A DNA stretch of 32,800 nt from a virus: the IMG/VR virus record IMGVR_UViG_3300009419_000050, positions 1-32,800 of that record; one strand, given 5' to 3'. Shown piece by piece: positions 1-32,800 of the stretch. A model generated the notes under the pieces. That model searched no databases. It saw nothing but the letters and a program-made list of their open reading frames with translations, and was not told the DNA's origin. Each line of letters starts with the position of its first letter. Within the stretch, counting starts at the first letter, position 1. Position numbers and translations under genes: made by a program.

Positions 1-171
1 GACGATGGTACTGACGAATTAGAATTACCACTTGATTGGGAAGTTGCACCAGCAGTTGACGATGGTACTGACGAATTAGAATTACCACTTGATTGGGAAG
101 TTGCACCAGCAGTTGACGATGGTACTGACGAATTAGAATTACCACTTGATTGGGAAGTTGCACCAGCAGTT
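1..171. repeat. 57-bp perfect tandem repeat, three visible copies
   Basis: Copies at 1-57, 58-114 and 115-171 are identical, and a degenerate fourth copy follows at about 172-200. The unit is 19 codons long, so copy-number change would keep the reading frame of the minus-strand gene. The array continues to the window edge, so the total copy number is unknown. Confidence 0.95.
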
Positions 172-1073
172 GACGGCGGTGCAGACGAAACAGAAGGTTT
201 CGAGACTGGTGTAGATGCTTCAGAGTTTTGTTCTCTTGATTTAGATAGTCTAGCGAGCTTTTGAGTTTCGCTATTGTTTTCCTCAATGTCTTGTTGGGTG
301 ATTGTAGGAGTGATTCTTTGTGCGTTTGATTCTCCAGATCCTGACGTGTCAGCACCTGAACTATCCTGACCAGCAATAGCCGCCGCCACTGCTCCAACAC
401 CAACAGTCACAGCAGCTAGAGCAAGGAACTTCTTACTTTTTAAAATACCAGTTAATGCTGATTTAAGTTTGCCTGCTGACTTAAATAACCCAGACAACAT
501 ACTAGTCAAGCCAGAAGCACCAGATCCTGACTTCTCATTTTCTTTGCCAGTAGGTGTTGGCTTAGATAGAGGTTCTATTAGTGACCTCGACTCGAGCGCT
601 GCTTCTTCAGCAGACATCATTTCTTGTTTGTGTTGTTCTTCTTGAAGCTTTCTGGTTTCTTCAAGAGTCTTAGCATTCTTACTCCACGCAGCTGTAATGT
701 TGTAAACGTTATCTGAAATGTTTGTAGCTAACGTTTCAATTCTTACAAGAACGCCTTGTTCTATATTTACTGAGTCTACAATTTCCTCAACAGGATCTTC
801 TTCCTTTGATCCAAATTTTGCTTCAAACCCAGCTCTGAGGGACTTACCAACAATCCCCTGGCCGAATATTCTATCTTTCAAGCTTTCTGATAGTCTGCTT
901 TTATATTCGCTATTGAATGTGTCAGAGAACTTCTTACCAGCTGTTCTTGCTTCCAAAGCTTTTTCGATAGCCGTGCCAAGACTAGGACCAAGTTTATTGA
1001 GAACATTATCTGTAAGTTCTGATTTAAACGTCCCCGTAATACTATCTACAACTGACTTGTTTTTGTCTGCCAT
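1..1073 (-). CDS. Partial large virion protein, possible tail tape-measure protein (5' part only)
   Basis: The gene starts at the ATG at 1073 and stays open past the left edge, so only about 357 N-terminal residues are visible. Its ATG overlaps the stop of the gp26 frameshift extension (TAATG), so translation is probably coupled. Residues 1-190 are mostly charged and probably helical, with a Glu/Gln/Lys-rich stretch near 150-175. Residues 216-235 form a hydrophobic Ala/Val/Gly segment after a Lys-Ser-Lys-Lys cluster. From about residue 240 the chain is low-complexity, and from residue 301 it becomes perfect 19-residue repeats of the type STAGATSQSSGNSNSSVPS. In tailed phages the gene directly after the frameshifted tail assembly chaperone is usually the tape measure (T4 gp29 role), and that position is the main support. 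The Ser/Asn-rich repeats are unusual for a tape measure. A tail-associated hydrolase with a long linker is an alternative. I do not recognise the family from sequence alone. Confidence 0.5.
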   Translation of the reverse strand, partial: MADKNKSVVDSITGTFKSELTDNVLNKLGPSLGTAIEKALEARTAGKKFSDTFNSEYKSRLSESLKDRIFGQGIVGKSLRAGFEAKFGSKEEDPVEEIVDSVNIEQGVLVRIETLATNISDNVYNITAAWSKNAKTLEETRKLQEEQHKQEMMSAEEAALESRSLIEPLSKPTPTGKENEKSGSGASGLTSMLSGLFKSAGKLKSALTGILKSKKFLALAAVTVGVGAVAAAIAGQDSSGADTSGSGESNAQRITPTITQQDIEENNSETQKLARLSKSREQNSEASTPVSKPSVSSAPPSTAGATSQSSGNSNSSVPSSTAGATSQSSGNSNSSVPSSTAGATSQSSGNSNSSVPS

Positions 1074-1252
1074 TATCTCTGTTTGAGTCTCTCTTGTTCT
1101 CGTTCAAGATAATCACGAAGCATATCAACGTACAGATCCCTCTCATAGGGATACATGCTTTCAATTTCACTCAATGAATATTTATGGTGCTGAACCAATG
1201 AAAAGTTTAGTGTATAATAGTTCGCTAGACTATTATGGCTCAGCCCAATGCG
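1073..1252 (-). CDS. C-terminal extension of gp26 reached by predicted -1 frameshift
   Basis: In the -1 frame after the slippery site, 59 codons run from CGC at 1252 to the TAA at 1073-1075. The encoded tail contains 'YSLSEIESMYPYERDLY' and ends in a charged helix rich in Glu and Arg. Such short acidic/aromatic C-terminal pieces resemble the T part of G/GT tail assembly chaperones. The frame has no convincing start of its own: the only upstream ATG sits late, at 1156, and would make just 27 residues with no obvious ribosome-binding site. The predicted fusion is about 292 aa (233 shared plus 59). The stop overlaps the next ATG (TAATG). The open frame is seen directly; frameshifting is inferred. 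Confidence 0.7.
   Translation of the reverse strand, partial: RIGLSHNSLANYYTLNFSLVQHHKYSLSEIESMYPYERDLYVDMLRDYLEREQERLKQR
1179..1185 (-). promoter_or_regulatory. T4-type late promoter box ATAAATA
   Basis: ATAAATA in the context CCATAAATATT lies inside the gp26 extension, about 106 nt upstream of the possible tape-measure start at 1073. It matches the core of the T4 late consensus TATAAATA. It could give that long gene its own late transcript, but chance occurrence in AT-rich DNA is possible. Confidence 0.35.
1214..1236 (-). promoter_or_regulatory. Hairpin downstream of the slippery site (possible frameshift stimulator)
   Basis: ATAATAGT (1236 to 1229) and ACTATTAT (1221 to 1214) form a perfect 8-bp stem with a 7-nt loop, 15 nt after the heptamer. 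A tiny GGC-TGA-GCC stem at 1245-1237 abuts it and begins 6 nt after the heptamer, so the two could stack. The stem is AT-rich. No U-tract follows it, so it does not look like a terminator. Confidence 0.55.
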
Positions 1253-1950
1253 AAAAAATCGTTAAGGCTGTCCAGCTTGATGGTAACTTCTCTACCAGTC
1301 TTATTAGTATAAGTTAAAATATGTTCGAGTTTGGGTAGCGTATCAAAGAATTTGTTTATCTGCTCATAAGTTTTAACATCAAGTGAGTTTAGAAACTCTT
1401 CAACTTCTTCATCAGTAGAGTCGGAAAACAAATATTCTTTGTCACCATCTACAATCCTATTGAGACATGATTTGATTAGAGCTAAAGTAAAAGCGGCTGA
1501 ATCTTCAGCATCTGCTAGTTTGTTCATTGCATCGAGTCTTGGATATCTTAGAAGCAAACTCATTGTATCGTTTATTTTAACAGTGCTAGGAGCTTCATCT
1601 ACTTTCTTAATTTGGATAATCTCCAAATCCACTTCGAAGTCATAGATCTGTCCATCTTCATTGTCTTTGTAAGATAGTTTGACTATACTATTAACAGACT
1701 TGGATCTGAGTTGGATGAAAAAATACTCCAAGTCAAATGTAGCAAAGTCATCTACATTGACGTTCTCTGTTGTAATGCAATTGTTAATCACCTGCTTGAT
1801 TGCATTAATAACATCTATTTGATTCTGAGATTGTTGAGCAACAAGAAGAATCATCTCTTCTCGTACAAGGAATGGTCGGTATGAAATTACTTGGCCCGTG
1901 GAAGGCAGATTCAGTTGAAAAACAGGGTGTGATAATTTAGGTAAAGCCAT
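1240..1950 (-). CDS. 26: Baseplate hub subunit gp26-like protein (zero-frame product)
   Basis: This 236-aa protein resembles the gp26 family of T4-like phages (T4 gp26 is about 208 aa). The opening 'LPKLSHPVFQLNLPSTG' followed by a long alpha-helical body is typical of marine T4-like members. In T4, gp26 is assigned to the central baseplate hub and its assembly. The ATG at 1950 has a GGAG ribosome-binding site upstream, just after the gp54 stop. The 3' end is the interesting part. The last codons GAT TTT TTC contain the heptamer T TTT TTC in the correct register for -1 slippage, and the -1 frame is open for 59 more codons. Together with its place between tail-tube-like gp54 and a possible tape-measure gene, this suggests that the protein acts as a tail assembly chaperone made in short and long forms. 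Confidence 0.8.
   Translation of the reverse strand: MALPKLSHPVFQLNLPSTGQVISYRPFLVREEMILLVAQQSQNQIDVINAIKQVINNCITTENVNVDDFATFDLEYFFIQLRSKSVNSIVKLSYKDNEDGQIYDFEVDLEIIQIKKVDEAPSTVKINDTMSLLLRYPRLDAMNKLADAEDSAAFTLALIKSCLNRIVDGDKEYLFSDSTDEEVEEFLNSLDVKTYEQINKFFDTLPKLEHILTYTNKTGREVTIKLDSLNDFFALG
1252..1258 (-). promoter_or_regulatory. Slippery heptamer T TTT TTC for -1 ribosomal frameshifting
   Basis: On the minus strand the zero frame reads GAT TTT TTC GCA, so the heptamer has the X XXY YYZ register required for tandem -1 slippage. The zero-frame TGA lies at 1240-1242, three codons downstream. The -1 frame continues in the extension described separately. Confidence 0.75.
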
Positions 1951-1964
1951 AATATTTTCTCCAA

Positions 1965-2786
1965 TCAGCCGAAGTATCCTCCAGTGATAACTTTAGCATT
2001 ATTAATAACGTTGATAACATCTCCAACACTTCGAGGTTTTCTGAGTGATGATATTGTTTGAAGTGCGGTCCCAGCTTTAACCAACTGCTGAAATCCAGAA
2101 AGTGGTTTTCTATAACCTGAGACAGGTTCGTTTTGATCTGTGTTTAGAATGTGTTGGAAGTATGTAAATGTAACCTGTAATTTCATAACTTGATCATTAT
2201 CACCCCAACTGAATGCTGTGTCGGATATAGAGATTGGAATTGCATCAACTATTTGGCTGCTCAACACACTATTACCAGCTTCATCAAAAGTCGATATCAT
2301 CATCTGACACTTGTATTCATCTTTGTACTCGACTTCAAATGGAGCTAATCCATTTGAACTCACCGTATTTCCGTTTACAAATTGATCGCTTGATACAATC
2401 TTATTCATCCATGTATAAAAGAATTTGTACAAGTCGCCATGGCCATCTACTAGGAATGAAACTGATATATCATTAAAGATAGGAGCATATGGTTTCTTTT
2501 CTATTGGTCCAATACCATAACGTCTTGTCTCAGAAGTTGCAAACATCAAGCCTGGAATGTTGGCAGATTCTGCATATAGATGTAAATTTTCAAACATCTT
2601 GCTGCCATTCATAATCCTTGGAGGTTGAATAGTAACCTCAAAAAGATTGGTTCTTGCAAATGACTTGTTTCTAAATTCAGACAAGAAACCATCATAACGG
2701 CCAGTAGCCCCCTTGGAGGAACTACTTTTCAGTGCTGAATATAAACCAACAGCTGATAGAGCTGTTCCTAAAAACTTAGCGGCCAT
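1965..2786 (-). CDS. 54: Baseplate tail tube initiator, gp54-like
   Basis: This 273-aa protein has the layout of the T4 gp54/gp19 tail-tube fold. An N-terminal Ala/Ser/Lys segment is followed by 'NLFEVTIQPP' (about 48-57), then 'ISVSFLVDGHGDLYKFFYTWM' at about 108-128, and a late beta strand 'MKLQVTFTYFQHI' (about 201-213). T4 gp54 has the matching features of an 'F..D' strand, a helix with a tryptophan, and 'FDVTFAYRVM' near its C-terminus, and is somewhat longer (320 aa). gp54 sits on the gp48 cap of the hub and starts polymerisation of the gp19 tail tube. The start overlaps the preceding stop (TAATG). A second tail-tube-like protein is the alternative, but the T4-like neighbours favour gp54. 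Confidence 0.8.
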   Translation of the reverse strand: MAAKFLGTALSAVGLYSALKSSSSKGATGRYDGFLSEFRNKSFARTNLFEVTIQPPRIMNGSKMFENLHLYAESANIPGLMFATSETRRYGIGPIEKKPYAPIFNDISVSFLVDGHGDLYKFFYTWMNKIVSSDQFVNGNTVSSNGLAPFEVEYKDEYKCQMMISTFDEAGNSVLSSQIVDAIPISISDTAFSWGDNDQVMKLQVTFTYFQHILNTDQNEPVSGYRKPLSGFQQLVKAGTALQTISSLRKPRSVGDVINVINNAKVITGGYFG

Positions 2787-3373
2787 TATTGATAGATCTT
2801 ATTCTTTGAATCAGCGTAAACCTTCAACTTACTTGCTTTAGCAAATCTTTCAAGAGGAAGGAACAGTGCAACATCCCATTGCGTAGGGTCAACTTTTAAG
2901 AAACGGGATTTAACATGATTATTTAGGTAGTGCTTTACACATGGCTCAAAGAACCTAAATTTAGCCGCACTTTGAAGAATCCTGTAGTTGATCCTAAGTC
3001 TAGTGGTTTCATCCATCTTATCATTGTTAATGGTATCATACAAAGCATCCATCAACTTTGCTCTAAGCAAAGGAGGAAGGTAGTGCATATTGATACCATA
3101 GAATCCACCTTTAACTTTTCTAAATGGAAATACTAAAGGAAACCTATCATAATAAGGAAGATCTTCTTTAGTTTTGGGATCGTATGCAAACAAATACATT
3201 TCTCCCGTAATAATTCTATTGGTGAGTAATGGACCTTGAGTAATAGTAGCTTTAGGGTTTACATTACGCACCTCAGCCGCTTTTTGTCTCAGCCAATTAC
3301 GAGCCTCTAGTGAGTTTTGAGCTCCACTAGCACCAGCTTTTTGAACTACGCTTTGAAATATTGTTGTCGCCAT
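2786..3373 (-). CDS. Conserved-looking phage protein of unknown function between gp4 and gp54
   Basis: This 195-aa protein has no signal peptide or membrane segment. Its most distinctive stretch, at about residues 57-100, contains 'GEMYLFAYDPKTKEDLPYYD', a Phe-Pro pair and 'NMHYLPPLLRAKLMDAL'. I recall this pattern from many myophage proteins but cannot name a confirmed function. It overlaps the gp4 stop by TAATG and its own stop overlaps the gp54 ATG in the same way, so it is translated in step with head-completion and tail-initiation proteins. In T4 the gene beside gp4 is gp2, the DNA end protector, so a gp2-like role is possible on position alone. A head-tail joining or tail-completion role is equally possible. 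Confidence 0.7.
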   Translation of the reverse strand: MATTIFQSVVQKAGASGAQNSLEARNWLRQKAAEVRNVNPKATITQGPLLTNRIITGEMYLFAYDPKTKEDLPYYDRFPLVFPFRKVKGGFYGINMHYLPPLLRAKLMDALYDTINNDKMDETTRLRINYRILQSAAKFRFFEPCVKHYLNNHVKSRFLKVDPTQWDVALFLPLERFAKASKLKVYADSKNKIYQ

Positions 3374-3813
3374 TAAAATTTGATTCCTAGTTCATGTTCC
3401 GTCATTATAACAAACTTCCACTCTCTGTGGTCACCGTACCTTTTAGCTGCCGCCCACTTTGCACTATTGATTCCCCAATTATATACTTCACGTAAATATC
3501 TTTTGCTAGGTTTTTTTTGAACTGTGGGTGCTGTTGTTTGAATGTGGGGTTTAACTTCTATAACTACTGTTTCTATAATCTTGTTAGAGTTTCTTTTTTT
3601 TACAAGGAAGTCAGGAAAGTATCTATGTACTTTGCCGTCAATTGGTGAAACGTAAGGTATACTGAACTCCTCACTAGCCCATTTAATCACATCAGAATGA
3701 GAATCCAGATACCTCATTAATTTTAGCTCCCAACTGCTACGATAAATAATAGTTGTAGGGTCTCCCATGTACTTGGTTGGATTCCTTGGTTTAAAATAAC
3801 CTTTATAGCTCAT
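3373..3813 (-). CDS. 4: Head completion protein gp4 (PD-(D/E)xK nuclease-like fold)
   Basis: The 146-aa length fits T4 gp4 (150 aa). The opening 'SYKGYFKPRNPTKYMGDPT' and the following 'YRSSWELKLMRYLDSH' are characteristic. Residues matching a TnsA-type or PD-(D/E)xK nuclease core are visible: Glu29 in the first helix, Asp68 in 'YFPDFLV', and Glu86-x-Lys88 in 'VIEVKP'. In T4, gp4 acts with gp2 at the portal after packaging and is needed for head-tail joining; nuclease activity has been proposed from the fold. This is the first gene of the leftward cluster. There is no good Shine-Dalgarno sequence, and an ATAAATA box lies immediately upstream. Confidence 0.9.
   Translation of the reverse strand: MSYKGYFKPRNPTKYMGDPTTIIYRSSWELKLMRYLDSHSDVIKWASEEFSIPYVSPIDGKVHRYFPDFLVKKRNSNKIIETVVIEVKPHIQTTAPTVQKKPSKRYLREVYNWGINSAKWAAAKRYGDHREWKFVIMTEHELGIKF
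3742..3748 (+). promoter_or_regulatory. Late promoter-like GATAAATA upstream of gp48
   Basis: ATAAATA preceded by G lies inside the 5' part of the oppositely oriented gp4 gene, 76 nt before the gp48 ATG. The two start codons are only 11 nt apart, so a rightward promoter has to lie within gp4. Predicted leader of about 71 nt. Confidence 0.45.
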
Positions 3814-3819
3814 AGGAAA

Positions 3820-3826
3820 TATTTAT
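3820..3826 (-). promoter_or_regulatory. Late promoter-like ATAAATA abutting the gp4 start
   Basis: On the minus strand CCATAAATATTTCCTATG places the box 6 nt before the gp4 ATG. With T4 late spacing (box at about -12 to -6) the transcript would start one base before the ATG. The box overlaps the gp48 start codon on the other strand. Confidence 0.4.
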
Positions 3827-4889
3827 GGCGTTTTTCTCTAAAGCCGCGGCCGCCGTAGCTGGGTTTGCAGCTGGAGCGGCACTCGCAGACAAAGTAGGTG
3901 GTATTGTATCACAAACACAGCAAGCTTTCAACAAAACTAAATTTGGTGATGTTGCAGGAGCTGCTTCCGCTGCGGGTTTCAAACCTATAACTAAATTTAA
4001 GACCAATGATTTTCCAAATTCTCCCAGTGCTTTAGCAGCTCAGTCATCACAAGAATCTTTGCAGAATAAAGATGTATTCGAGGTTCTAACATATCCACAA
4101 GATATTGGCAAGTATTTTATTAAGTTTAGTTTTATATCATATTCTAAAGATAGAGCTTTAGCAGTAGCTAAAGATGAGCCAACAGTAGTTGTTATTTTTC
4201 CTATTCCTACAAACTTAAATGAAAACTTTTCAGTATCATATAATGATGCTAAGCTTGGTTCTGTTTTAGGTGCTGCTGTGGCGACAGGGGTGAAGGTTAT
4301 TAATGGTCAACAAGCTCTTTTCAGTAAGGAAACAGGTACTTCGGTTGTTGAAGCAGCTGCAGTGGGAGTTAGAGAAAACGTGGGGAGAATAGGCGGTGAA
4401 ACCCTTTTGGCTAACATTGATGAGGCGACGGGAGTAGTTCCTAATCCTCACTTAGCCGCAATTTTCCAGGATATTGGTTTGAGGGAACATAGCTTTACTT
4501 TTAGATTTTCTCCAAAAAATAAACAAGAAGCAGATTTAATTAAAAAAATTATTAAAACAATCAAAAGACGAATGTTGCCGGGGACAGGCTTGAGTGGTGA
4601 ATCCTCAACAGGACCCCTGTTTTCTTTTCCTGATATAGTTGATATATCTTTTGGACCCAAAGATGTTGAGCCTTATAAAATTAAAAGATCAGTTTTAACT
4701 TCAATGACTGTCAATTACGCCCCCAATGGAACTCCAGCTTTTTTCAAAGATGGTTCGCCTACTGATATTGAGATTGGTTTAAACTTCAAAGAGATTAGAG
4801 TTGTTACTCGTGAAGACTATAATGATAGGAAGCAAGATACAACTCTATCTCCTTCATTGGGTAATGTTATGCCAGGAGGTGGAGCATAA
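3825..4889 (+). CDS. 48: Baseplate tail tube cap gp48
   Basis: This 354-aa protein matches T4 gp48 (364 aa) in length and in the order of its features. An Ala-rich N-terminus comes first, then a strand 'IGKYFIKFSFISYSK' (about 90-104) and the core 'EHSFTFRFSPKNKQEADLI' (about 222-240), which corresponds to the gp48/gp19-type element 'FTWDLTPRS..E'. Toward the C-terminus are 'FPDIVDISF' and 'SMTVNYAPNGTPAFFKDG', then 'NFKEIRVVTRED', resembling the T4 gp48 end 'NGLAIAPN...MREIITLNR'. gp48 closes the top of the gp27-gp5 hub and supports gp54. An AGGAA ribosome-binding site lies at 3814-3818. It is the first gene of the rightward baseplate operon. Confidence 0.88.
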   Translation: MAFFSKAAAAVAGFAAGAALADKVGGIVSQTQQAFNKTKFGDVAGAASAAGFKPITKFKTNDFPNSPSALAAQSSQESLQNKDVFEVLTYPQDIGKYFIKFSFISYSKDRALAVAKDEPTVVVIFPIPTNLNENFSVSYNDAKLGSVLGAAVATGVKVINGQQALFSKETGTSVVEAAAVGVRENVGRIGGETLLANIDEATGVVPNPHLAAIFQDIGLREHSFTFRFSPKNKQEADLIKKIIKTIKRRMLPGTGLSGESSTGPLFSFPDIVDISFGPKDVEPYKIKRSVLTSMTVNYAPNGTPAFFKDGSPTDIEIGLNFKEIRVVTREDYNDRKQDTTLSPSLGNVMPGGGA

Positions 4890-14572: not shown

Positions 14573-17500
14573 ATGCCATTAGAGACCAATTTAAACACAA
14601 CACCTTACTGGGATGACTATAATGAAGATAAGGCATTCCACAAGATCCTTTTTAAACCAGGTGTTGCTGTACAAACAAGAGAGTTAAACCAACTCCAAAC
14701 AATCCTCCAACAACAAATTGAGAGGTTTGGCGATCACGTATTCAAAAGTGGTACTATAGTTAGTGGTGTAAACTTTAATTACAATCCTCTATTACCATAT
14801 GTAAAGATTTTCGATTTACAGGAAGACGGTCAGCCTGTTAATCCAGCTGGGTATCTTAACTTATCAGTTCGAAACAGTGCCAATCTTCAAGCAACAATTG
14901 TACATTATGAAGTGGGCTTTCAATCTAAAAATCCAGATTTAAATGCTTTGTATTTGAGATATGTGAACTCTGGAAACAGTTATAGTATATCCCAATTCTC
15001 CAATAACGATGTGTTGGAAATTTTTAGTCCGTATAATGCTATTTTCGATGTCACTGTAGATAATGGTGGACTGGCTTTTGCTAATTCTGATACAGTTCAT
15101 ATTATTAGCGCAATCAATGTTACTGTATCTAGTGGTACGTTTACAAACGGTGAAATTTTTACACAAGCAACAACAGGTGCAAGACAACAAATTGTTGGTA
15201 TAAGTGCAGGTGCTAATTCAAGTACAAAAATTCTTAGCATCAAACCCATTGCTAGTGAACAACTTTCCAACACGTCAGCTAATTCAACTTCCTGGACATT
15301 GGGAACAGGATACAACATTACAGGAAATACATCAGCTGCAGTAGCCTCAGTCACTTCGTTTATTGGAAGTGGTGCAGCTGCATCTATAGTTACTGATTCT
15401 TTAGGCGTGGTACAAAACATTGTAATGTCGCAAAATGGTCAAGACTACACTACATTGCCACAGGTTGTAATCAAGCCAGCTTCAGTATCAGCCTCCGTAT
15501 CTACTTTGAGCTTAACACCAAAAACATTTAAAGCAAAAATTAGAGTCGCTGATAGCACGTTTACAAATCCAGTTGGATTTGGTTACTCCTTCTCTGTATC
15601 AGAAGGTATCATTTATCAGAAGGGTATGTTCTCTAAAGTAACACCCCAGTTCATTGTTGTTTCTAAATTTGATCAAACTCCAAACAATGTTTCAGTTGGT
15701 TTTAATTCTGACGAAACAATTGTAAAATATACCACTGACTCAACATTATACGATAACTCTGCAAACTCATACAATGAGGGTGCTCCTGGTGCAGATAGAA
15801 TGAGGATCAAACCAAGATTGGTTTTGGTTAACACTCAAGATAGTGCTGCAAATTCAGAGTTTCTTCCTCTTGTGGAATTTAGTGAAGGCTTGCCTGCTAA
15901 AGAAAACAAAAACACAATTTACAACGAGCTTGCTAAAGAGTTTGAAAGAAGAACTTACGAGAGCTCTGGTAACTTTGTAATTAACTCTTTTAGATCTACA
16001 ACAAGAGATATTGCTTCCAATACCACACACTTCAACGTGGTTGTAGATCCTGGTACAGCTTACATTAAAGGTAAGAGAGTTCAAACTCTGACCAATACAA
16101 TTAAAGAATCATCAAAAGCAAATACTTACCAGTCAAAACCCAATCAAATAATTACTGCTAATTATGGTAATTATGTCAGGGTCAAAGAATTGGCAGGTTT
16201 TTTTGATTTTAAAGCCGGTGCAACTGTTAATTTATACGACACTGCAAAAAGTTATATTAATAGTGTAACGGTAGGTTCCACTACAGCAATCACACCAGCT
16301 GGCAACGCTATCGGCACTGCTAAAATGAGATCGCTTGTGTATGATAGTGGTACTGTAGGCACTCCTGATGCTGTTTATAGAATGTACTTGTTTGATATAT
16401 CTCTCAATACTGGTAAGTCATTCAGAGATGTTAGAAGCTTGTATTATGATGGAACGTTTGACGGTATTTGTGATACAGTTTTAGAGTTAGACGCTACAAC
16501 TAATTCTAATATTCCAGTATTGTATGATACTAGTAATCCAGACGTTATATTTAAAACAGGGGTAGGCTCTGTTAAGAGTGTGAGTGGAGTCAGTTACACT
16601 TACAGAACCTCTACAGAAAATCTTGTACTGTCTACAGGTGGTATAGTCACTGCTAACTCTCCTACCAATAAATTGTTTCCTTATTCTGATGGTGCTCTTT
16701 CAACAACGCAGAAATCAGACTTTGTTATTGTTCCAATTGCAAATGCACAAACAGCTAATATTAGCGGAACCGTTAGTGGTGATACCACTTCAGCTAATTT
16801 AGTTGGAACTTCAACATCTTTTACTTCTGTATTTGCAGCTGGTGATTATATCACAGTTTATGGTACACCTTCAGCTGTAAGCGTTAGAAGAATTGAAAAC
16901 GTCGTTAATAACACGCTAATGATTTTGAATGCTAACTTAGCATATACAAACGCATTAAGTAATTCTGCTTTGTTCTTCCCAGCGTATTATCCTATCCCAA
17001 TGAATAATAGGTCTGGTAGGACCATCACCATCGGCAATGGATCTAATACGTTTACAGCTAATATTGCTACTAACATTCTTGCATCTGCAAACGTTATTGT
17101 TTCTTATAATGTAAGAGTTCCCTCTGCTTCACAGGTTAATAAAACTATTACACGTGATTTGTATGTGAAGATTTACACAGGCAATAACGTTACTGTATCA
17201 GCTTCTGGTAATAATACTACAGGACCTTGGAGTCTTGGTATTTCAGATGTGTGTAGATTAAAAAACGTTTATTTGGGTAACACCGTAAATGATATTGATG
17301 TAACAAAACATTTCTTTGTGAATTCATATAATGATGGTGATACTGTTAACAATGCTGAATTGAAACTTATCCCAGGAGCTTCTCTAGCTTTATCTAATAG
17401 CCAGTGGCTATTGGCAAAGTTTGATGCTTTTGATGCAGGATCAAATGAAGGTTACATCACCATTAACTCTTACAACGTAGATGATTCCGGTGGTTACAGT

Positions 17501-18937
17501 AATTCATCATCAATCAATACTTTGGAAGTTCCTGAGCTATTAACCTCCGATGGTAGATACTACGATACTAGAAATTGTTTTGATTTTAGACCATATAGCT
17601 CTAATACAGCTACAAGAGCAACGTCAGTAGCTAGTGCAACCGTCAATCCTGCTAACACACAAGCTTTGAGCGCTGATGAAAAGTACATCCCGTTGCCTGA
17701 CTCACAAGTTCAGTTTGATGTGGATAGCTATCTTCCAAGATTGGATATTGTTACAGTAGACAAGGATAATAATATCAAGATTACTACAGGATCACCTGCT
17801 GTTAATCCAAAAATACCAAAAGCACCTACAGACACAGTAACTATTAGTAGAATGCAAGTTCCTGCATATCCAACATTACCTACTGCACTTTCTAATACAA
17901 CGTTTCAAATTCTAGATCAAAAAGTGGGTAACGATACTTCTATTGTGAGTTTTAGACAGAAAAAACTTACAACTAAAAACTTAAACTTTGCAGCCGACTC
18001 AAGAAATATCTCTAAAAGATACACAATGGCTGATATTGGTAAGCTTGAAAAAAGGGTTACGCAGATTGAAAAGAACTTGTCTCTTTCATTAGTAGAGAAA
18101 AGTATCTCTGATAAGATAATTCCTAGCTCTACTGATCCTGCAAAAAACAGATTTAAAAATGCGTTTTTAGTTGATGGATTCAGGGATAATACTGTCAATG
18201 ATGGATCAAACTATGAGAATAGATGTTTAATAGACGTATCTGTTGGTCAGCTACTACCATTGACCTTTTCCTATAATGTTGAGGGTTTATTTGATAGATC
18301 GAATGCAAGTACAAGCAATAATATCCACGAGGGTAAAATTCTTATGCTACCTTATGATGAGTTGCCAATCATTCAGCAGCTCACAGCCTCACAACCTGCA
18401 ATACCTCAAGTTTTTGTATATCCTGTCGCACCGGCATTTTCAAACACAGCCGTAGTTAAAACTAGTGGTGTCGAAGTAACAACCAATAATACTGTCACTC
18501 CTGTAGTTGTTGCTGTAGCAAACACTGATACTGACCCTGTTGTTACTAATCCTCCGATTGTATCATCATGGGGAGGTGATCCAGTTATTGTTAGTCCTGC
18601 ACCGACCGATACAATTTGTGTAATTATTGATAATCTTTATAGAGGTGTAATTACAATTCCTGATTTCAGGGACCCTCCATATCCAGCTTATGAGGAAACT
18701 ATTGGTAACCCAGTAGTTCCATTACCTCCTGATTATTACCCTGATTTAACTGAACCTGCAGTGGATCCTGTTGAGGGAGCATGTACCCCTGATGACTACT
18801 ATAGCGACATCTATGAAAGTGATTATAATATAGGAGACTATGTAGGAGGATCCGGAGGAGTAGGAAATATATTGGATGATATGGATAATACGTTTAATAC
18901 ACGAGAAGGTTTTGATTCCGCTTATGAAGGCTGGTAA
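14573..18937 (+). CDS. Large DUF4815-type tail fibre/baseplate periphery protein
   Basis: This 1454-aa protein starts with the typical DUF4815 opening 'YWDDYNEDKAFHKILFKPGV' (about 12-31) and 'QTRELNQLQTILQQQIERFG' (about 34-53). The conserved middle includes 'FERRTYESSGNFVI', 'YIKGKRVQTLT', 'YDTRNCFDFRPYSSN' (about 1001-1015) and a helix 'ADIGKLEKRVTQIEKNLSLS'. Such proteins occur after baseplate genes in myophages and are virion fibre or baseplate-attached proteins; their exact role is not established. Two kinds of small beta module are inserted, near residues 181-225 and 733-804. The last ~90 residues are acidic and rich in Pro, Tyr and Asp. An AGAGGA ribosome-binding site precedes the ATG, 10 nt after the gp8 stop. 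In T4 this position belongs to gp9/gp10, so it may connect fibres to the baseplate. Confidence 0.8.
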   Translation: MPLETNLNTTPYWDDYNEDKAFHKILFKPGVAVQTRELNQLQTILQQQIERFGDHVFKSGTIVSGVNFNYNPLLPYVKIFDLQEDGQPVNPAGYLNLSVRNSANLQATIVHYEVGFQSKNPDLNALYLRYVNSGNSYSISQFSNNDVLEIFSPYNAIFDVTVDNGGLAFANSDTVHIISAINVTVSSGTFTNGEIFTQATTGARQQIVGISAGANSSTKILSIKPIASEQLSNTSANSTSWTLGTGYNITGNTSAAVASVTSFIGSGAAASIVTDSLGVVQNIVMSQNGQDYTTLPQVVIKPASVSASVSTLSLTPKTFKAKIRVADSTFTNPVGFGYSFSVSEGIIYQKGMFSKVTPQFIVVSKFDQTPNNVSVGFNSDETIVKYTTDSTLYDNSANSYNEGAPGADRMRIKPRLVLVNTQDSAANSEFLPLVEFSEGLPAKENKNTIYNELAKEFERRTYESSGNFVINSFRSTTRDIASNTTHFNVVVDPGTAYIKGKRVQTLTNTIKESSKANTYQSKPNQIITANYGNYVRVKELAGFFDFKAGATVNLYDTAKSYINSVTVGSTTAITPAGNAIGTAKMRSLVYDSGTVGTPDAVYRMYLFDISLNTGKSFRDVRSLYYDGTFDGICDTVLELDATTNSNIPVLYDTSNPDVIFKTGVGSVKSVSGVSYTYRTSTENLVLSTGGIVTANSPTNKLFPYSDGALSTTQKSDFVIVPIANAQTANISGTVSGDTTSANLVGTSTSFTSVFAAGDYITVYGTPSAVSVRRIENVVNNTLMILNANLAYTNALSNSALFFPAYYPIPMNNRSGRTITIGNGSNTFTANIATNILASANVIVSYNVRVPSASQVNKTITRDLYVKIYTGNNVTVSASGNNTTGPWSLGISDVCRLKNVYLGNTVNDIDVTKHFFVNSYNDGDTVNNAELKLIPGASLALSNSQWLLAKFDAFDAGSNEGYITINSYNVDDSGGYSNSSSINTLEVPELLTSDGRYYDTRNCFDFRPYSSNTATRATSVASATVNPANTQALSADEKYIPLPDSQVQFDVDSYLPRLDIVTVDKDNNIKITTGSPAVNPKIPKAPTDTVTISRMQVPAYPTLPTALSNTTFQILDQKVGNDTSIVSFRQKKLTTKNLNFAADSRNISKRYTMADIGKLEKRVTQIEKNLSLSLVEKSISDKIIPSSTDPAKNRFKNAFLVDGFRDNTVNDGSNYENRCLIDVSVGQLLPLTFSYNVEGLFDRSNASTSNNIHEGKILMLPYDELPIIQQLTASQPAIPQVFVYPVAPAFSNTAVVKTSGVEVTTNNTVTPVVVAVANTDTDPVVTNPPIVSSWGGDPVIVSPAPTDTICVIIDNLYRGVITIPDFRDPPYPAYEETIGNPVVPLPPDYYPDLTEPAVDPVEGACTPDDYYSDIYESDYNIGDYVGGSGGVGNILDDMDNTFNTREGFDSAYEGW

Positions 18938-18955
18938 TTAGGTTAAAATCATACA

Positions 18956-18962
18956 ATAAATA
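18956..18962 (+). promoter_or_regulatory. Late promoter-like ATAAATA abutting the 123-aa gene
   Basis: The box ends five bases before the ATG at 18968. With T4 late spacing the predicted first transcribed base is the A of the start codon. No Shine-Dalgarno sequence is visible between box and start. Confidence 0.5.
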
Positions 18963-18967
18963 ATAAT

Positions 18968-19339
18968 ATGCCAACAACAATTAATATTTTCAAAGAAGCA
19001 GATTCCCACTACAAATTTGTAGGGCTCAAGCCACTGACTGCTCATTATTTTTACTTCAACAAAAAATTGCAAACTGCTAGGGTTAAGCAACTAGGTAAAA
19101 AACTAGGCCAAGCATTAATTTCTGATGCTGATGGTATTTTGGAGGTAATATATTATTTAGATTCAGGTATATCTTCCGACTCACCTGCCAATTTTGCTTA
19201 CAAAGTTCCTAACTTAGCAGCTGGAATATCGGAAGTTGTAGTCACAACGTATAATTCTGCAAATAATGATTTACCAGAAAATTATTTAAATTCATCAGTG
19301 TCTTCAAGTAAAATAATTTTTGGTGCATTAAGGAAATAA
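18968..19339 (+). CDS. Small Ig-like virion protein
   Basis: This 123-aa protein contains 'FVGLKPLTAHYFYFNKKL' (about 17-34), then a Lys/Gly stretch and 'ALISDADGILEVIYYL' (about 49-64). This is the pattern of an Ig-like domain ('GLKPNT..YAFFD...LVTDA.G...') that I recall inside large DUF4815 fibre proteins of other myophages. Here it is a separate gene directly downstream of the DUF4815-type gene. No signal or membrane segment. Likely a structural component of the same fibre or its attachment site; that role is inferred. Confidence 0.7.
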   Translation: MPTTINIFKEADSHYKFVGLKPLTAHYFYFNKKLQTARVKQLGKKLGQALISDADGILEVIYYLDSGISSDSPANFAYKVPNLAAGISEVVVTTYNSANNDLPENYLNSSVSSSKIIFGALRK

Positions 19340-19348
19340 TAATATCAT

Positions 19349-21622
19349 ATGTTTAACATTGCTCAATCATTTTTTATTGATAAAGAATTGGTCCAAGGCT
19401 CTCCGACAACTTTTGTCACTAGTGTGGATCTATACTTTAAATCAAAGCCTATTGAAGGTAAGACAGCTTCAGGTATTTCTAAACCTGGGGTGTTGGTTAA
19501 CATTTGTGGAATTGTAGATGGTAAGCCAACCCCTGAGCTGATCGATCACAGATCGTATAGTAGAGTAGAGTATGATAATATCAACACATCAACAACAGCT
19601 AATACATCTACAAAATTTACATTGAGTACACCAATTCCTCTATCCACGGACAAGGAATATGCTGTTGTTGTTTCATTTGATGGTAATGATTCAGGATTTG
19701 AGTTGTGGAAAAATACTTCTGGAGAGGAAGATATTGTATCTGGAAGAATTACAAAGGTATCAGCAGGTAAGGTAGATGGTAATTACTTTGATTTGACTAA
19801 TGGTACAGAAGTTACAAGACGTAATGATGTTGATTTAAAATTTAAAGTATCTGTAGCTAAATTTACAGGTGCTAGAAGTAATACTTTTATAATTAGTAAT
19901 GATGCTTACGAATTCTTTACTCTGACCTCTGGATCAGTCAATGGGGCGTTTGTTGGTGGTGAGTATGTTTATCAAGCTCAAGCAAATCTTGCTGGGTCGG
20001 TTACTGTAACTTCAGGATCTTCTAATATCGTAGGTGTTGGCACTGATTTGGTAACAAACGTGTCCAATGGTGATTTAATTGTTATTGGTAATAATTCCGT
20101 GTCTCAGGTAAGAGTAGTTAACATTGTAAGTAATACAACGTTTATGAATACTACTGCTTCCTTCTCCACTTCTGCTTCTAGTGTGAATGCTACTGCGTTT
20201 GAGCATGGGAAGCTTAATATCGATTCAAGTAGCAATACAGTTATCGGCACAGGGACTTCTTTTGCTACGATTGCTGCTGGCTCATATATTGTAATTACAG
20301 ATGGCACAAATGGAAACACAGAAGTGAGAAAAGTTGTTAGCGTCGACTTAGCTAACAATAATCTGGTTTTAGATGTTAAGCCATCCTTCTCAAATACACA
20401 ATCTGCTTGGTTTGTTTCACCAGTTGGTAAAGTTGAACAGTTTAGAAATTATGCAGATAACATGGTTTTAAATAGTTCATCTGCAAATTCTACAGTATAT
20501 TTCCAAACTGGAAAAATCCTCAAGGGTGTAGATTTTCAAGCTAATGCTGTATTGGGTTCCATTAACAATCTTAAATTGGCAGCGTATAGACCAAACTATA
20601 GTATTGGAATTCCAGCTGGGACATCTGTTGACTATCTTGTGAACTTTGCTAATACAACCTATAGTAAGTCTGATAGTAATAATGTTAGAGTACAAAATGG
20701 TAGTGTCAATCCCATTAACAACTTTCCAGCTATCCTAGCTTCTAGATCCAATGAGGTTAACAATCCTTCAAATCTATTTGCTAATTCAAAGAGTATGAAT
20801 TCAACACTCACATTCTCTTCAGACAATCCTTTTACTTCTCCATATGTTTCTGAAAACAATTTAGATTTTACATCATATGAGTACAAAATTAACAATTCTT
20901 CCAATAACGAATCTTTTGCTAACGGTAGTGCTTTTACAAGATATGTTTCTAAGTCAGTTGTGTTGGATAACGATCAAATTGCAGAAGACCTAATTGTTTA
21001 TTTGAGTGCTTTCAAACCCTCAGGCACAGATGTAGAAGTATACGTCAAAGTGTTGAGTGAAGAGGATAACGAATTTATTACGGACAAGAACTGGACCAAG
21101 ATGGTTTTGGATGTTCCTAGTGGTGGTGTCGTTAATAGTATTGATTCTAACCCTAATGATTTCATCGAGCTTAAGTATAATATTCCTCCATTCCATGCAG
21201 GTACTACTGTTGCTTCCGGTACATTTAGTGTGAGCTCTGCTACAAATGTTATAACATCAACTTCAACAACAGTTAATACTAGTATAATTCCTGGTGACTT
21301 AGTTAGAGTTTACAATCCAACGTTTCCTGATACTTACTTCCTTGATATTGTTACAGCGTCCAATACTACCACACTTACTGTTTCAGAGACAGTATCAAAC
21401 AATGATCTAGTAGGTGCTGGCTTATTAATTGATGTAATAAGAACAGATAAAAACTCAGCATATCTGGACAATCAAAACTTTAACATAGTTAGATATCTCA
21501 ATTCTAGCTCTGCTAAATATGACGGGTTCAAATCTTTTGCAGTAAAGATTGTTTTGCTTGCTAATAATTATTATCTTGTTCCAAGAGTATCTGAGTATAG
21601 AGCAATTGCGTTATCAGCATGA
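19349..21622 (+). CDS. 757-aa fibre protein with a C-terminal-type DUF4815-fibre domain
   Basis: The N-terminal ~150 residues have the pattern 'IAQSFFIDKE', 'FVTSVDLYFKSKP' (about 23-35), 'KPTPELIDHRSYSRV' and 'TDKEYAVVVSFDGNDSGFEL'. They match the domain 'LAQTF.V......FLTSVD.FF..K......Y.....N..Y' found in the C-terminal part of long DUF4815 fibre proteins. A 'GAFVGGEYVYQAQANLAGSV' module follows (near 200), then two tandem copies of a 'GTGT.......GD.I.V' module at about 219-271 and 293-349. A conserved-looking part ('KILKGVDFQANAVLG', 'SKSVVLDNDQIAEDLIVYLS') follows, then a third module copy near 623-688. It starts 10 nt after the previous stop and ends in ATGA overlap with the next gene. 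Probable adhesion or fibre-attachment protein. Confidence 0.75.
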   Translation: MFNIAQSFFIDKELVQGSPTTFVTSVDLYFKSKPIEGKTASGISKPGVLVNICGIVDGKPTPELIDHRSYSRVEYDNINTSTTANTSTKFTLSTPIPLSTDKEYAVVVSFDGNDSGFELWKNTSGEEDIVSGRITKVSAGKVDGNYFDLTNGTEVTRRNDVDLKFKVSVAKFTGARSNTFIISNDAYEFFTLTSGSVNGAFVGGEYVYQAQANLAGSVTVTSGSSNIVGVGTDLVTNVSNGDLIVIGNNSVSQVRVVNIVSNTTFMNTTASFSTSASSVNATAFEHGKLNIDSSSNTVIGTGTSFATIAAGSYIVITDGTNGNTEVRKVVSVDLANNNLVLDVKPSFSNTQSAWFVSPVGKVEQFRNYADNMVLNSSSANSTVYFQTGKILKGVDFQANAVLGSINNLKLAAYRPNYSIGIPAGTSVDYLVNFANTTYSKSDSNNVRVQNGSVNPINNFPAILASRSNEVNNPSNLFANSKSMNSTLTFSSDNPFTSPYVSENNLDFTSYEYKINNSSNNESFANGSAFTRYVSKSVVLDNDQIAEDLIVYLSAFKPSGTDVEVYVKVLSEEDNEFITDKNWTKMVLDVPSGGVVNSIDSNPNDFIELKYNIPPFHAGTTVASGTFSVSSATNVITSTSTTVNTSIIPGDLVRVYNPTFPDTYFLDIVTASNTTTLTVSETVSNNDLVGAGLLIDVIRTDKNSAYLDNQNFNIVRYLNSSSAKYDGFKSFAVKIVLLANNYYLVPRVSEYRAIALSA

Positions 21623-27107: not shown

Positions 27108-30100
27108 ATGGCTACTGCATTAGATTTCCCATCGTCTCCAGCTAATAACCAAACTTATTCTTTAGGTTCCCGAACTTGGAAATATAATGGTACCGCTTGG
27201 GAAATTGTTAACACAAACACTGGTCCCCAAGGTGTTCAAGGAGCTCAAGGAACTCAAGGCTTCCAGGGTGTTCAAGGTTTCCAAGGTGTTCAAGGAGCTC
27301 AGGGTATTCAAGGTGTTCTTGGTGCTCAAGGTATATTAGGTGCACAAGGTTTCCAAGGTGTTCAAGGTTATCAAGGTAACCAAGGCTTCCAGGGTATCCA
27401 AGGAGCTCAAGGTGTCCAGGGTGAGCAAGGCTTCCAAGGCGCTCAAGGTACCCAAGGTTTCCAAGGTGTTCAGGGTGCTCAAGGTGTCCAAGGTGCTCAA
27501 GGTGTCCAGGGAGCTCAAGGTGTTCAAGGAGCCCAGGGTGTCCAAGGTGCGCAAGGTGTTCAGGGTGCTCAAGGCGTTCAGGGTGCTCAGGGTGTTCAAG
27601 GAGCTCAAGGCGTTCAGGGTGCACAAGGTGTTCAGGGTGCCCAAGGCGTCCAAGGAGCTCAAGGTGTCCAGGGTGCTCAAGGCGTCCAAGGTGCACAGGG
27701 CGTTCAGGGTCACCAAGGTGTCCAAGGCGCACAAGGCGTACAAGGTTTCCAAGGTGCGACGGGCACGTTCAGTGGTGCAGCGTTTAACTTTAACTTTGAC
27801 ACTACCAGCATCACAAATACAGATCCAGGTACAGGTGTCTTAAAGTTCAGCGATGCAAACATTGCAGCAGCTGCCAATCTATACATTGACTTTTTAGATA
27901 ACACCACACCAGGTGCTAACGTATACAATTTCTTGCAGACGATTGATGATTCAACATCTGCTATTAAAGGTTTGTTCCAGATCACTGAGATTGCGAATAA
28001 TAACCACTTCGTTCAGTTCTCTATCAGTGGTAGTCTTACCAACCTAGCTGATCACATTAGCGTTCCAGTTACCTACATTGCTGGTAGTAACGTTTGGGCA
28101 AATGGTGTATCAACTGTAATTTCTTTCACCAGAACTGGTGACAAGGGTGACCAGGGTGTTCAAGGTTTCCAAGGTGTCCAAGGTGCTCAAGGCGTTCAGG
28201 GTCACCAAGGTGTTCAGGGTGCCCAGGGTGTCCAAGGCGCTCAGGGCACACAAGGCTTCCAAGGTATCCAAGGGGCTCAAGGAACTCAAGGCTTCCAAGG
28301 AGTTCAAGGAGCTCAAGGAGTTCAAGGAGCACAAGGCTTCCAAGGTGACCAAGGTGTTCAGGGTGCTCAGGGTGTTCAGGGTCACCAAGGGGTCCAAGGA
28401 GCTCAGGGTGTGCAGGGCTTCCAAGGTATACAAGGTGCACAAGGCGTTCAAGGTTTCCAAGGTGTCCAGGGTGCTCAAGGCGTCCAGGGTGCACAGGGTG
28501 TTCAAGGTTTCCAAGGTAACCAAGGATTCCAAGGTATTCAAGGTTTCCAAGGTGTACAAGGAGCTCAAGGAGTACAGGGCGCACAAGGCGTTCAAGGAGC
28601 CCAAGGTGTTCAAGGCTTCCAGGGCGTTCAAGGTGCGCAAGGCGTCCAAGGTGATCAAGGTGTTCAAGGAGCTCAAGGCGTCCAGGGTGCACAGGGGGTT
28701 CAAGGAGCCCAAGGTGTTCAGGGTGCACAAGGAGTTCAGGGAGCACAAGGCGTACAAGGCTTCCAAGGTGTCCAGGGTGCGCAAGGCGTTCAAGGTTTCC
28801 AAGGTGTACAAGGAGCTCAAGGAGTACAGGGTGCACAGGGCGTTCAGGGTCATCAAGGTGTTCAGGGTGAAGTAGGCGCTCAAGGTAGTCAAGGTTTCCA
28901 AGGCATCCAAGGTGCTCAAGGCGTACAGGGAGCTCAAGGTGTCCAAGGAGCTCAAGGCGTCCAGGGTGCTCAGGGTGTCCAAGGAGCTCAAGGCGTCCAG
29001 GGTGCTCAGGGTGTCCAAGGAGCTCAAGGCGTCCAGGGTGCTCAAGGCGTTCAGGGTCACCAAGGTGTTCAAGGAGCCCAGGGTACACAAGGTTTCCAAG
29101 GTGTCCAAGGAGCTCAAGGCGTTCAGGGTTCACAGGGTGCTCAAGGCTTCCAAGGTGTCCAGGGAGCTCAAGGCGTTCAGGGAGCTCAAGGTGTCCAGGG
29201 TGCTCAAGGCGTTCAAGGAGCTCAGGGCGTTCAAGGTGCTCAAGGTGTCCAGGGAGCTCAAGGTGTCCAGGGAGCTCAAGGTGTTCAGGGTTCACAGGGT
29301 AATGATGGTAACTTTGGTGGTGCTTCATTTGACTACACTTACGATACTAACGTAGCTGCTACGGATCCAGGTACAGGTAAGTTAAAGTTTAATAATGCAT
29401 CTCTAAATCTTGCAACTATATTGCGGATAGATGATACAAATGATAATGCTACAGATATTCAAGAGTTTTTAAGAACGATTGACGACTCTACTTCTACCAT
29501 CAAGGGTCACTTCCGAGTTTCCAAGAAGTTTGATGCTTCTGCGTTTGCATTGTTCACAATTACATCAATTGTAGAACAAACTGGTTATTTTGACGTTGAT
29601 TGCTCTTTTGTTAGTGGTAGCAGTAATACACCTTTCAGTAATAGTGAAGATGTAATTATTACATTTGCTAGAACAGGTGATCAAGGTGCCCAGGGTAATC
29701 AAGGTTTCCAAGGCGTTCAAGGTGCACAAGGCGTTCAAGGTGCACAAGGCGTCCAGGGTGCTCAGGGTGTACAAGGAGCTCAGGGTGTACAAGGAGCTCA
29801 GGGTGTACAAGGAGCTCAAGGCGTCCAGGGTGCTCAGGGTGTACAGGGTGCTCAAGGCGTTCAGGGTCACCAAGGTGTTCAGGGTGCTCAAGGCGTTCAG
29901 GGTGCTCAGGGTGTTCAAGGAGCTCAGGGCGTTCAGGGTCACCAAGGTGTTCAGGGTGCCCAAGGCGTTCAAGGAGCTCAAGGCGTCCAAGGTGCACAAG
30001 GAGTTCAAGGTGCTCAAGGAGTTCAAGGTGCTCAGGGTGTCCAAGGCTTCCAGGGCGTTCAAGGTGCTCAAGGTGTTCAAGGTCACCAAGGTGTCCAAGG

Positions 30101-32800
30101 AGCTCAAGGTACTCAAGGCTTCCAGGGTGTCCAGGGTGCTCAAGGTGTTCAGGGTGATCAAGGAGTTCAAGGTGCTCAAGGCTTCCAAGGTATCCAAGGA
30201 GCTCAAGGTGTCCAAGGTGTTGTTGGTGCTCAAGGCTTCCAAGGCGTTCAAGGTGCTCAAGGTGTACAGGGAGCTCAAGGAACCCAAGGCTTCCAAGGTG
30301 TCCAAGGAGCTCAAGGTGTCCAGGGTGCTCAAGGTGTACAGGGAACACAAGGTGGTGTAAGTGTAACGCTCTCTGCTAATCCTCCAGTATCTCCTCAGTA
30401 TGGCGATCTTTGGATTGATAGTGATACAGGTATTGAATTTACATGGTTCAATGATGGTACATCAGACCAATGGGTTGAACTTGGCAACGTGGGTTACATG
30501 GGTAATCAAGGTGCCCAGGGTGCTCAAGGTGTCCAAGGTGCTCCTGGTGTATTCACTGGTGCTTCATTCGAGTACACATTCTCTACTACAACGACCAACG
30601 CTGACCCAGGTAACGGTTTCCTAAGATTTAGCAATGCAAACATTGCAGCTGCTGCTAATTTGTATATTGACTTCTTGGATAGTTCAGTTGCTGGTGCTAA
30701 CGTTTACAACTTCTTGCAGACAATTGACGATTCATCATCTGCTATCAAAGGCCTGTTTACAATATCCGAACTTGCTAACTTAGCTCACACAGCTCAGTTC
30801 TCAATTGTTGGTTTACATACAGAGCTTGCTGATTACTTCAGTGTTCCAATTGCTTTTATTGCTGGTAGTAACACATGGTCTAATGGTACTGACATCTCTA
30901 TTGCTTTCACAAGAACTGGTGATAAGGGTGACCAGGGTGTTCAAGGTTTCCAAGGTGTTCAAGGTGCTCAAGGAGTTCAAGGCTTCCAAGGTATCCAAGG
31001 AGCTCAAGGAGTACAGGGTGCACAAGGCGTTCAAGGTGCACAAGGAGTTCAAGGTGCACAAGGCGTTCAGGGTGTAATTGGTGTCCAGGGTGCACAAGGC
31101 GTTCAGGGTGTTGTTGGTGCCCAAGGTAATCAAGGTGTCCAGGGTGTGATTGGTGCTCAGGGTGTAATTGGTGTCCAAGGTGCTCAAGGTGTCCAAGGTG
31201 TTATTGGTGCTCAAGGTGCTGTTGGTGCTCAAGGCTTCCAGGGCGTTCAAGGTGCTCAAGGTGTTCAGGGCTTCCAAGGCGTTCAAGGTGCTCAAGGTGT
31301 TCAGGGTGCTGTTGGAGCACAAGGCACGCAAGGGGCAGTAGGAGCCCAAGGCTTCCAAGGCGTCCAAGGAGCTCAAGGAGTTCAGGGTGCCCAAGGTCGT
31401 CAAGGCTTCCAAGGTGTCCAAGGTGCTCAGGGTGTTCAGGGTGTAATTGGTGTCCAAGGTGCCCAGGGTGTCCAGGGTGTAATTGGTGTTCAAGGAGCTC
31501 AGGGTGTTCAGGGAGTGATTGGTGTCCAAGGTGCTCAAGGTGTCCAAGGTGCTCAGGGTCGTCAAGGCTTCCAAGGTCAAACAGGCGCTTTCAGTGGTGC
31601 AGCATTCAACTACAATATTGATACTTCTTCTACAGCTAACGCTGATCCAGGTGTTGGTAAGTATAGATTCAACAATGCAAATATTGCTGCTGCCACTAAC
31701 TTGTTTATTGACTTCTTAGATAATACAACTCCTGGTGCCAACGTTTACAACTTCCTACAGACAATTGATGATTCAACATCAACAATCAAAGGGTTGTTCT
31801 CAATCACAGAGTTGTCTAATACAAACAACTTTGCTCAATTCTCTATCAGTGGCAGTATTACAAATAATGCTGGTTACATAACTGTACCAACCACATACAT
31901 TGCTGGTAGTAACGTTTTCACTAACAACACTAACACTGTAATATCTTTCTCACGTACTGGTGATAAGGGTGACCAAGGCGTCCAAGGCTTCCAAGGTGTT
32001 CAAGGTTTCCAGGGCGTTCAGGGTGCTCAGGGTGTTCAGGGTGTCGTAGGTGCTCAAGGTAATCAAGGTGTTCAGGGTGCTCAGGGTGTTCAGGGTGTGT
32101 TGGGTGCTCAGGGTGTGATTGGTGTCCAGGGTGCTCAGGGTGTTCAAGGTGTAATTGGTGTCCAGGGTGCTCAAGGCGTTCAGGGTGTGATTGGTGCACA
32201 GGGTGCTGTAGGTAACCAAGGTGTTCAGGGTGCTCAGGGTGTTCAAGGTGCTGTTGGTGTACAGGGTGCTCAAGGTCGTCAAGGTGATTTGGGTGTTCAA
32301 GGTGCCCAAGGTCGTCAAGGCTTCCAGGGTGTTCAAGGTGCTCAAGGCGTTCAGGGTGTATTAGGTGCTCAAGGTACTGCAGGTGGCACAGGTCCTACAG
32401 GTCCAACAGGTCCTCAGGGTGTTCAGGGAGCTCAGGGTGTTCAGGGTACTGCTGGTTCTAACGGTGGCACAGGTCCTACAGGTCCTACAGGTCCTCAGGG
32501 CGTCCAAGGTGCTGCTGGTTCTAACGGTGGCACAGGTCCAACAGGTCCTCAGGGTGTCCAAGGTGCTACAGGTCCTGGTGGTGGTACTGGTCCTACAGGT
32601 CCTCAGGGTGTCCAAGGTGCTACAGGTCCTGGTGGTGGTACTGGTCCTACAGGTCCTCAGGGTGTCCAAGGTGCTCAAGGTCGTCAGGGAGCTCAGGGTG
32701 TTCAGGGTACTGCTGGTTCTAACGGTGGCACAGGTCCTACAGGTCCTACAGGTCCTCAGGGCGTCCAAGGTGCTGCTGGTTCTAACGGTGGCACAGGTCC
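27108..32800 (+). CDS. Giant modular collagen-like tail fibre (3' end outside window)
   Basis: The frame from ATG 27108 stays open to the right edge, giving at least 1897 residues. Residues 1-38 form a small attachment-type domain ('[20 protein letters not shown]'). Collagen-like rods follow at 39-219, 344-734, 857-1082, 1132-1147, 1271-1493 and 1618 to the edge. Between them are four related globular modules at 220-343, 735-856, 1148-1270 and 1494-1617, and one copy of a smaller module at 1083-1131. Each large module shows 'DPG.G..(K/R)F..A', '(N)FL.TIDDS.S.IKG.F' and ends in 'RTGD(K)G(D)QG' leading into the next rod. The rods are mostly Gly-X-Gln, changing near 32380 to GPTGPTGPQ and 'GSNGGTGP' units. 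It has its own late promoter. Likely a very long trimeric host-recognition fibre; receptor and tip are unseen. Confidence 0.85.
27222..27764 (+). repeat. Collagen-like rod I of the giant fibre
   Basis: About 181 codons of Gly-X-Y beginning GPQGVQGAQ, dominated by alternating GVQ-GAQ triplets encoded by 18-bp quasi-repeats. Confidence 0.94.
27765..28136 (+). repeat. Fibre globular module, copy 1 (124 aa)
   Basis: Contains '[20 protein letters not shown]', '[20 protein letters not shown]' and '[10 protein letters not shown]', closing with 'SFTRTG'. It is most similar to the third and fourth copies. Confidence 0.9.
28137..29309 (+). repeat. Collagen-like rod II, longest rod
   Basis: About 391 codons of Gly-X-Y with [15 protein letters not shown] and GNQ triplets. 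Near 28940-29045 a 36-bp unit (four triplets) is repeated about three times perfectly. A few prolines or charged triplets occur at the edges (GDKGDQ, GEV). Confidence 0.94.
29310..29675 (+). repeat. Fibre globular module, copy 2 (122 aa, divergent)
   Basis: Keeps '[13 protein letters not shown]', '[17 protein letters not shown]' and a terminal 'ITFARTG', but differs from the other copies over much of its length ('[13 protein letters not shown]', '[12 protein letters not shown]'). Confidence 0.88.
29676..30353 (+). repeat. Collagen-like rod III
   Basis: About 226 codons of Gly-X-Gln. Between about 29755 and 29822 an 18-bp unit encoding GAQGVQ is repeated at least three times with identical codons. 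Confidence 0.94.
30354..30500 (+). repeat. Globular insert module C, copy 2
   Basis: Contains '[18 protein letters not shown]' and '[12 protein letters not shown]', matching the copy at 25932-26078 closely at protein level but with many silent and replacement changes in the DNA. Confidence 0.85.
30549..30917 (+). repeat. Fibre globular module, copy 3 (123 aa)
   Basis: Contains '[20 protein letters not shown]', '[20 protein letters not shown]' and 'AFIAGSNTW', closing with 'AFTRTG'. A 16-codon collagen-like stretch (30501-30548) separates it from module C. Confidence 0.9.
30918..31586 (+). repeat. Collagen-like rod IV
   Basis: About 223 codons of Gly-X-Y. It differs from earlier rods in carrying many GVI and GVV triplets (GVQGVIGVQ) and GAVGAQ units. 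Confidence 0.94.
31587..31958 (+). repeat. Fibre globular module, copy 4 (124 aa)
   Basis: Contains '[20 protein letters not shown]', '[20 protein letters not shown]' and '[10 protein letters not shown]', closing with 'SFSRTG'. It is close to copy 1. Confidence 0.9.
32423..32539 (+). repeat. 117-bp perfect direct repeat, copy 1
   Basis: Identical base for base to 32684-32800, 261 bp downstream. The 261-bp offset is a multiple of 9. The second copy is cut by the window edge, so the true repeat may be longer. Confidence 0.92.
32541..32675 (+). repeat. 54-bp tandem repeat, about 2.5 copies
   Basis: Copies start at 32541, 32595 and 32649; the third is partial. The unit encodes 18 residues mixing GPT, GPQ, GVQ and GAT triplets with a Gly-Gly-Gly step. 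Confidence 0.85.
32684..32800 (+). repeat. 117-bp perfect direct repeat, copy 2 (reaches window edge)
   Basis: Matches 32423-32539 exactly, including synonymous positions, which points to recent duplication or gene conversion. Confidence 0.92.

Follow-up and report, generated by a model that had tools for sequence, protein, structure and literature searches.

The gp26 gene in a stretch of 32,800 nucleotides from an uncultured phage (IMG/VR record IMGVR_UViG_3300009419_000050, positions 1 to 32,800; hereafter the window) very probably encodes two tail assembly chaperones, the longer of which would be produced by a -1 slip on the heptamer T TTT TTC, aided by an RNA stem. We infer that most ribosomes would read gp26 up to its stop and make the short form, TAC-N, while a minority would slip back by one base on the heptamer, helped by the stem lying 7 nt downstream of it, and add 59 residues to give the long form, TAC-NC. 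If the two forms act as lambda gpG and gpGT do, their common part would be the one to bind the tape measure protein, with the extension recruiting the tail tube protein.

The short form is encoded on the minus strand at 1240–1950 (236 aa). It belongs to family PF12322 (T4_baseplate, the gp26 family), with an E value of 5.5e-53 and a score of 180.3 bits against a curated cut-off of 24.5, and it also matches phrog_150 (E 2e-58); its identity to proteins of cultured phages is about 40% at most, among the matches listed. The 3′ end of the gene reads, in register, GAT TTT TTC and then GCA TTG GGC TGA, and the heptamer (1252–1258, minus strand) indeed stands three codons ahead of the stop and in the right register, as stated in the initial annotation. 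After a -1 shift following TTC, reading goes on as RIGLSHNSLANYYTLNFSLVQHHKYSLSEIESMYPYERDLYVDMLRDYLEREQERLKQR up to the TAA at 1073–1075, which makes an extension of 59 codons plus stop (1073–1252, minus strand). Two further features noted from the start are present in the window: the TAA of the extension overlaps the ATG of the next gene (TAATG), and the open -1 frame has no convincing start of its own, the earliest ATG being codon 33 and the earliest GTG or TTG codon 19. The profile comparison that had been proposed for the extension gave an E value of 1.1e-23 for phrog_634 (“baseplate hub assembly catalyst”) and a weaker match to the end of phrog_150, and this identifies the extension, at the level of sequence, as the C-terminal domain of T4 gp51 (TAC-C).

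Relatives of gp26 were gathered from cultured phages and from IMG/VR, and 93 homologous loci, window included, were scanned for heptamer and frame; the extension is complete in 90 of them, and clustering at 70% identity divides these 90 into 48 clusters. Alignment of these loci, which had been suggested as a check of the frameshift, spoke in its favor. All 93 loci have an in-register heptamer, two to five codons ahead of the gp26 stop, and the -1 frame stays open for 54 to 65 codons past the heptamer wherever the contig extends that far, hence in all 90 complete loci, with third codon positions the most variable in the extension, a protein-coding pattern of substitution. The heptamer was kept even where the amino acid was altered: it is T TTT TTA in locus L053, in which the second Phe became Leu, and T TTT TTG in AF3, one of the phages read separately. 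From the codon usage of each gene, and with shared ancestry ignored, the 48 cluster representatives would all have NNT followed by TTT with a probability of about 1e-20. Of 51 other Phe-Phe pairs in these genes, which are preceded by different residues, only a single one reads T TTT TTY. Sequencing error or chance as the origin of the frame break is practically negligible: errors of this type often occur at T runs, but the relatives contradict such an origin, with the same break in 93 loci and the codon-level signals conserved.

The annotation of gp51 as a gene of its own in many records, at a start position that varies from one to another, points to a different explanation, in which the extension would be a small gene in its own right, like the annotated cyanophage gp51, translated by reinitiation after the gp26 stop. 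An ATG overlaps this stop in KVP40, Cr30 and AF3; more generally, ATG comes no earlier than extension codon 10 in 34 of the 90 loci and is found at codon 3 to 7 in many cyanophages, in which a separate short protein is therefore possible. Reinitiation is nevertheless very unlikely, since the first ATG and the first TTG of the window extension both fall inside the conserved domain, a separate gene has no need of the heptamer that every locus carries, and T4 gp51 is an in-frame fusion. On the frameshift reading, which we prefer, many of the cyanophage genes annotated separately as gp51 would be extensions of gp26. The same reading would explain why cyanophage and marine vibriophage gp51 was described without its first 200 or so residues (Sullivan et al. 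2010, PMC3037559).

In T4, gp26 and gp51 are both listed as hub assembly chaperones (Leiman et al. 2010, PMC3004832). Both match PF12322; T4 gp26 (208 aa) matches phrog_150 as far as position 235, while gp51 (249 aa) matches it as far as position 280 and matches phrog_634 as well, so that gp51 appears as a gp26-like protein with the extension fused in frame. Judged from these matches, T4 has two separate genes of one family, gp26 corresponding to the short form and gp51 to the short form with the extension fused on. Among 14 whole phage records, PF12322 genes number two in T4 and IME13 and one in the other 12; T TTT TTN occurs in 11 of these 12 single-copy records, and a search at the gp26 end and at the gp51 junction of T4 and IME13 revealed a heptamer at neither place. 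No XXXYYYZ heptamer was found in Vibrio phage 1.244, which has a single PF12322 copy. In this phage (L095, Ackermannviridae; positions 2992–3884), the annotated start of the -1 extension ORF is an ATG that overlaps the stop of gp26, and the extension may be made in a third way here. The initial annotation knew of no textbook frameshift for T4 gp26, and for T4 itself this stands, whose gp26 has no shift because the long form comes from a gene of its own, gp51; for T4-like phages, however, the arrangement was published in 2022. The abstract of that work, by Vladimirov, Gautam and Davidson, reportedly names T4 genes 26 and 51.

Past the slip site, a stem of 9 bp closing a loop of 38 nt is conserved, with its 5′ arm (GCTGAGCCA, 1236–1244, minus strand) starting 7 nt after the heptamer and its 3′ arm (TGGTTCAGC) at 1189–1197 on the same strand. 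The window's group for RNA analysis comprised 29 sequences, namely the loci with the stop five codons on, together with L022, L031 and L038, which were added after their folds had been seen. In this group RNAalifold found the stem unprompted (columns 15–23 with 62–70), and four of the stem pairs are altered on both sides, a compensatory change. Pairing is seen in 97.7% of the cells, compared with 20–39% for slid controls, but the stem had first been noticed in folds of these same sequences, and for this reason we treat pair counts as description and a synonymous-codon null as the stricter test. When the extension was recoded synonymously, 5.16 ± 0.23 pairs were expected (maximum 5.97 in 1000) versus 8.79 of 9 observed; when codons were permuted within columns, the observed value was reached once in 1000. 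The mean folding z-score was -3.8 downstream versus -0.3 in an upstream control, and -3.72 for the window alone.

A different structure had been noted initially, a perfect 8-bp hairpin (ATAATAGT/ACTATTAT). It is present at 1214–1236 (minus strand), almost wholly inside the loop of the conserved stem, but among 100 fetched loci only the window's own DNA (L001) has it, and as a non-conserved element it was rejected as the stimulator. From sequence comparison, the stimulating structure is likely the longer-range 9-bp stem instead. No match to Rfam was found in the window. The conserved RNA stem after the slip site may be a new detail. The stem also bears on slippage of the RNA polymerase on the T run, which would fuse the two frames in a fraction of the transcripts. 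Seven or more consecutive T are found in some relatives, as would suit such slippage, but in many loci, among them that of the window, the run stops at six T and a C comes next, and the in-register pattern with a conserved stem at a 7-nt spacer fits slipping of the ribosome; we regard a polymerase origin as highly improbable.

RNAalifold applied to 51 cyanophage-type sequences returned no common stem, and the idea of one stem shared by all phages was rejected. In the same place as the stem of the window's group, one cyanophage subset has a 10-bp stem and another a 5-bp hairpin, for which pair counts are weaker evidence because both subsets had been selected visually for the motif. With ribosomal frameshifting as the source of the long form, we lean with some reserve towards a broader scenario, in which the short-to-long ratio would be set in the window's lineage by its own covarying stem and in cyanophages by other stems nearby, T4 having dropped the shift in favor of two genes, so that several interchangeable devices would serve one ratio.

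An AlphaFold2 model of gp26, built from an alignment of 42 sequences (only the window and IMG/VR loci), had a mean pLDDT of 85.8. Foldseek of this model against the PDB gave nothing significant (E over 1), and a sequence search against solved structures gave a single match (E 0.089), taken as chance. A comparison of the fold with a viral library returned gp26 proteins of T4-like phages. The Foldseek candidates were then aligned with VIA-align 2, and four phage- or element-borne structures, all matching within gp26 residues 1–95, came out with Z of 5.2–8.2, the next one having 3.1: 3fgx (Z 8.2, rmsd 3.7, 86 aligned), the HK97 tail assembly chaperone 2ob9 (Z 7.5, rmsd 4.1 over 84 residues), 3klu (Z 7.3, rmsd 4.0, 86 aligned), which is YqbN, a member of a phage chaperone family, and 5ir0 (Z 5.2, rmsd 4.5, 85 aligned). 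The three best lie within 1 Z of one another and count as tied, and values of up to about 8 may arise from a common arrangement. The predicted fold of gp26 appears to resemble those of tail assembly chaperones, including that of HK97, to which the likeness covers gp26 residues 1–86; the two differ in that gp26 runs 150 residues past the matched domain, and their identity is 8%. Chain 5ir0_B, which matches the N-terminal fold, is ORF19 of a PICI-like element of Vibrio cholerae, a satellite protein with a chaperone-like fold that might act on helper phage tails. Conservation of heptamer and frame, the RNA stem, the homology to gp51 and this predicted fold together support the original proposal that gp26 is, or doubles as, the tail assembly chaperone, and strongly so for a -1 frameshift yielding short and long chaperones from its gene, which is very likely.

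Upstream of gp26 lies a gene for a tail tube-like protein (1965–2786, minus strand; phrog_45, E 5e-39). The downstream gene (3–1073, minus strand), which shares the TAATG overlap with the extension and is cut by the window edge, is a candidate tape measure gene by its position; BLASTP matched it to the equivalent genes of L005 (2e-19) and L015 (5e-14), and no tape-measure family match was obtained for the truncated gene or for the scanned equivalents in L015 and L002. In Cr30, a gene annotated as tape measure follows one gene further on. Inside the downstream gene, window positions 1–189 at the contig edge hold a 57-bp tandem repeat (19-residue units), possibly the reason why the assembly ended there. 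Elsewhere in the window, phrog_358 is matched in two pieces at 14573–21622 (plus strand), 14573–18937 corresponding to profile positions 95–1079 and 19349–21622 to 1424–2055, with a small unmatched ORF in between, and a gene that relatives carry undivided may be split at this place. At 27227–32760 there are long collagen-like repeats in units of 9/18/54 bp, and the frames are broken into several pieces started by GTG or TTG; indels may have fragmented a large tail fibre gene.

Among known systems, lambda gpG/gpGT likewise comprise a short form and a -1 frameshifted long form, but the lambda slippery site, GGGAAAG, is not that of the window. Both lambda proteins act on the tape measure protein and are absent from the virion, according to a 2016 review (PMC5009743) in which G-T frameshifting is described as widely conserved “except T4”. 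T4 gp26 and gp51 share PF12322 with the window protein, and gp51 ends in the same extension domain, but they are encoded by two genes on opposite strands with no heptamer, whereas the window has one gene with a heptamer. The main idea, a frameshifted chaperone in T4-like phages, has already been published by Vladimirov, Gautam and Davidson (2022, Virology 566:9-15), who, as cited in PRFect (PMC10885494) and in the paper on phage Adele (PMC12846349), described poly-T shift signals in the short chaperone genes of T4-like phages and, for some of these phages, a short and a long chaperone encoded by separate genes. The window adds an uncultured lineage with the one-gene frameshift arrangement, and its conserved RNA element makes the control of the chaperone ratio directly testable. 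As far as those citations convey the 2022 work, its chaperones and that of the window are of the same family and share a -1 frameshift at a poly-T site; the window differs in coming from an uncultured phage whose gp26 is at most about 40% identical, and in a clade with a covarying stem.
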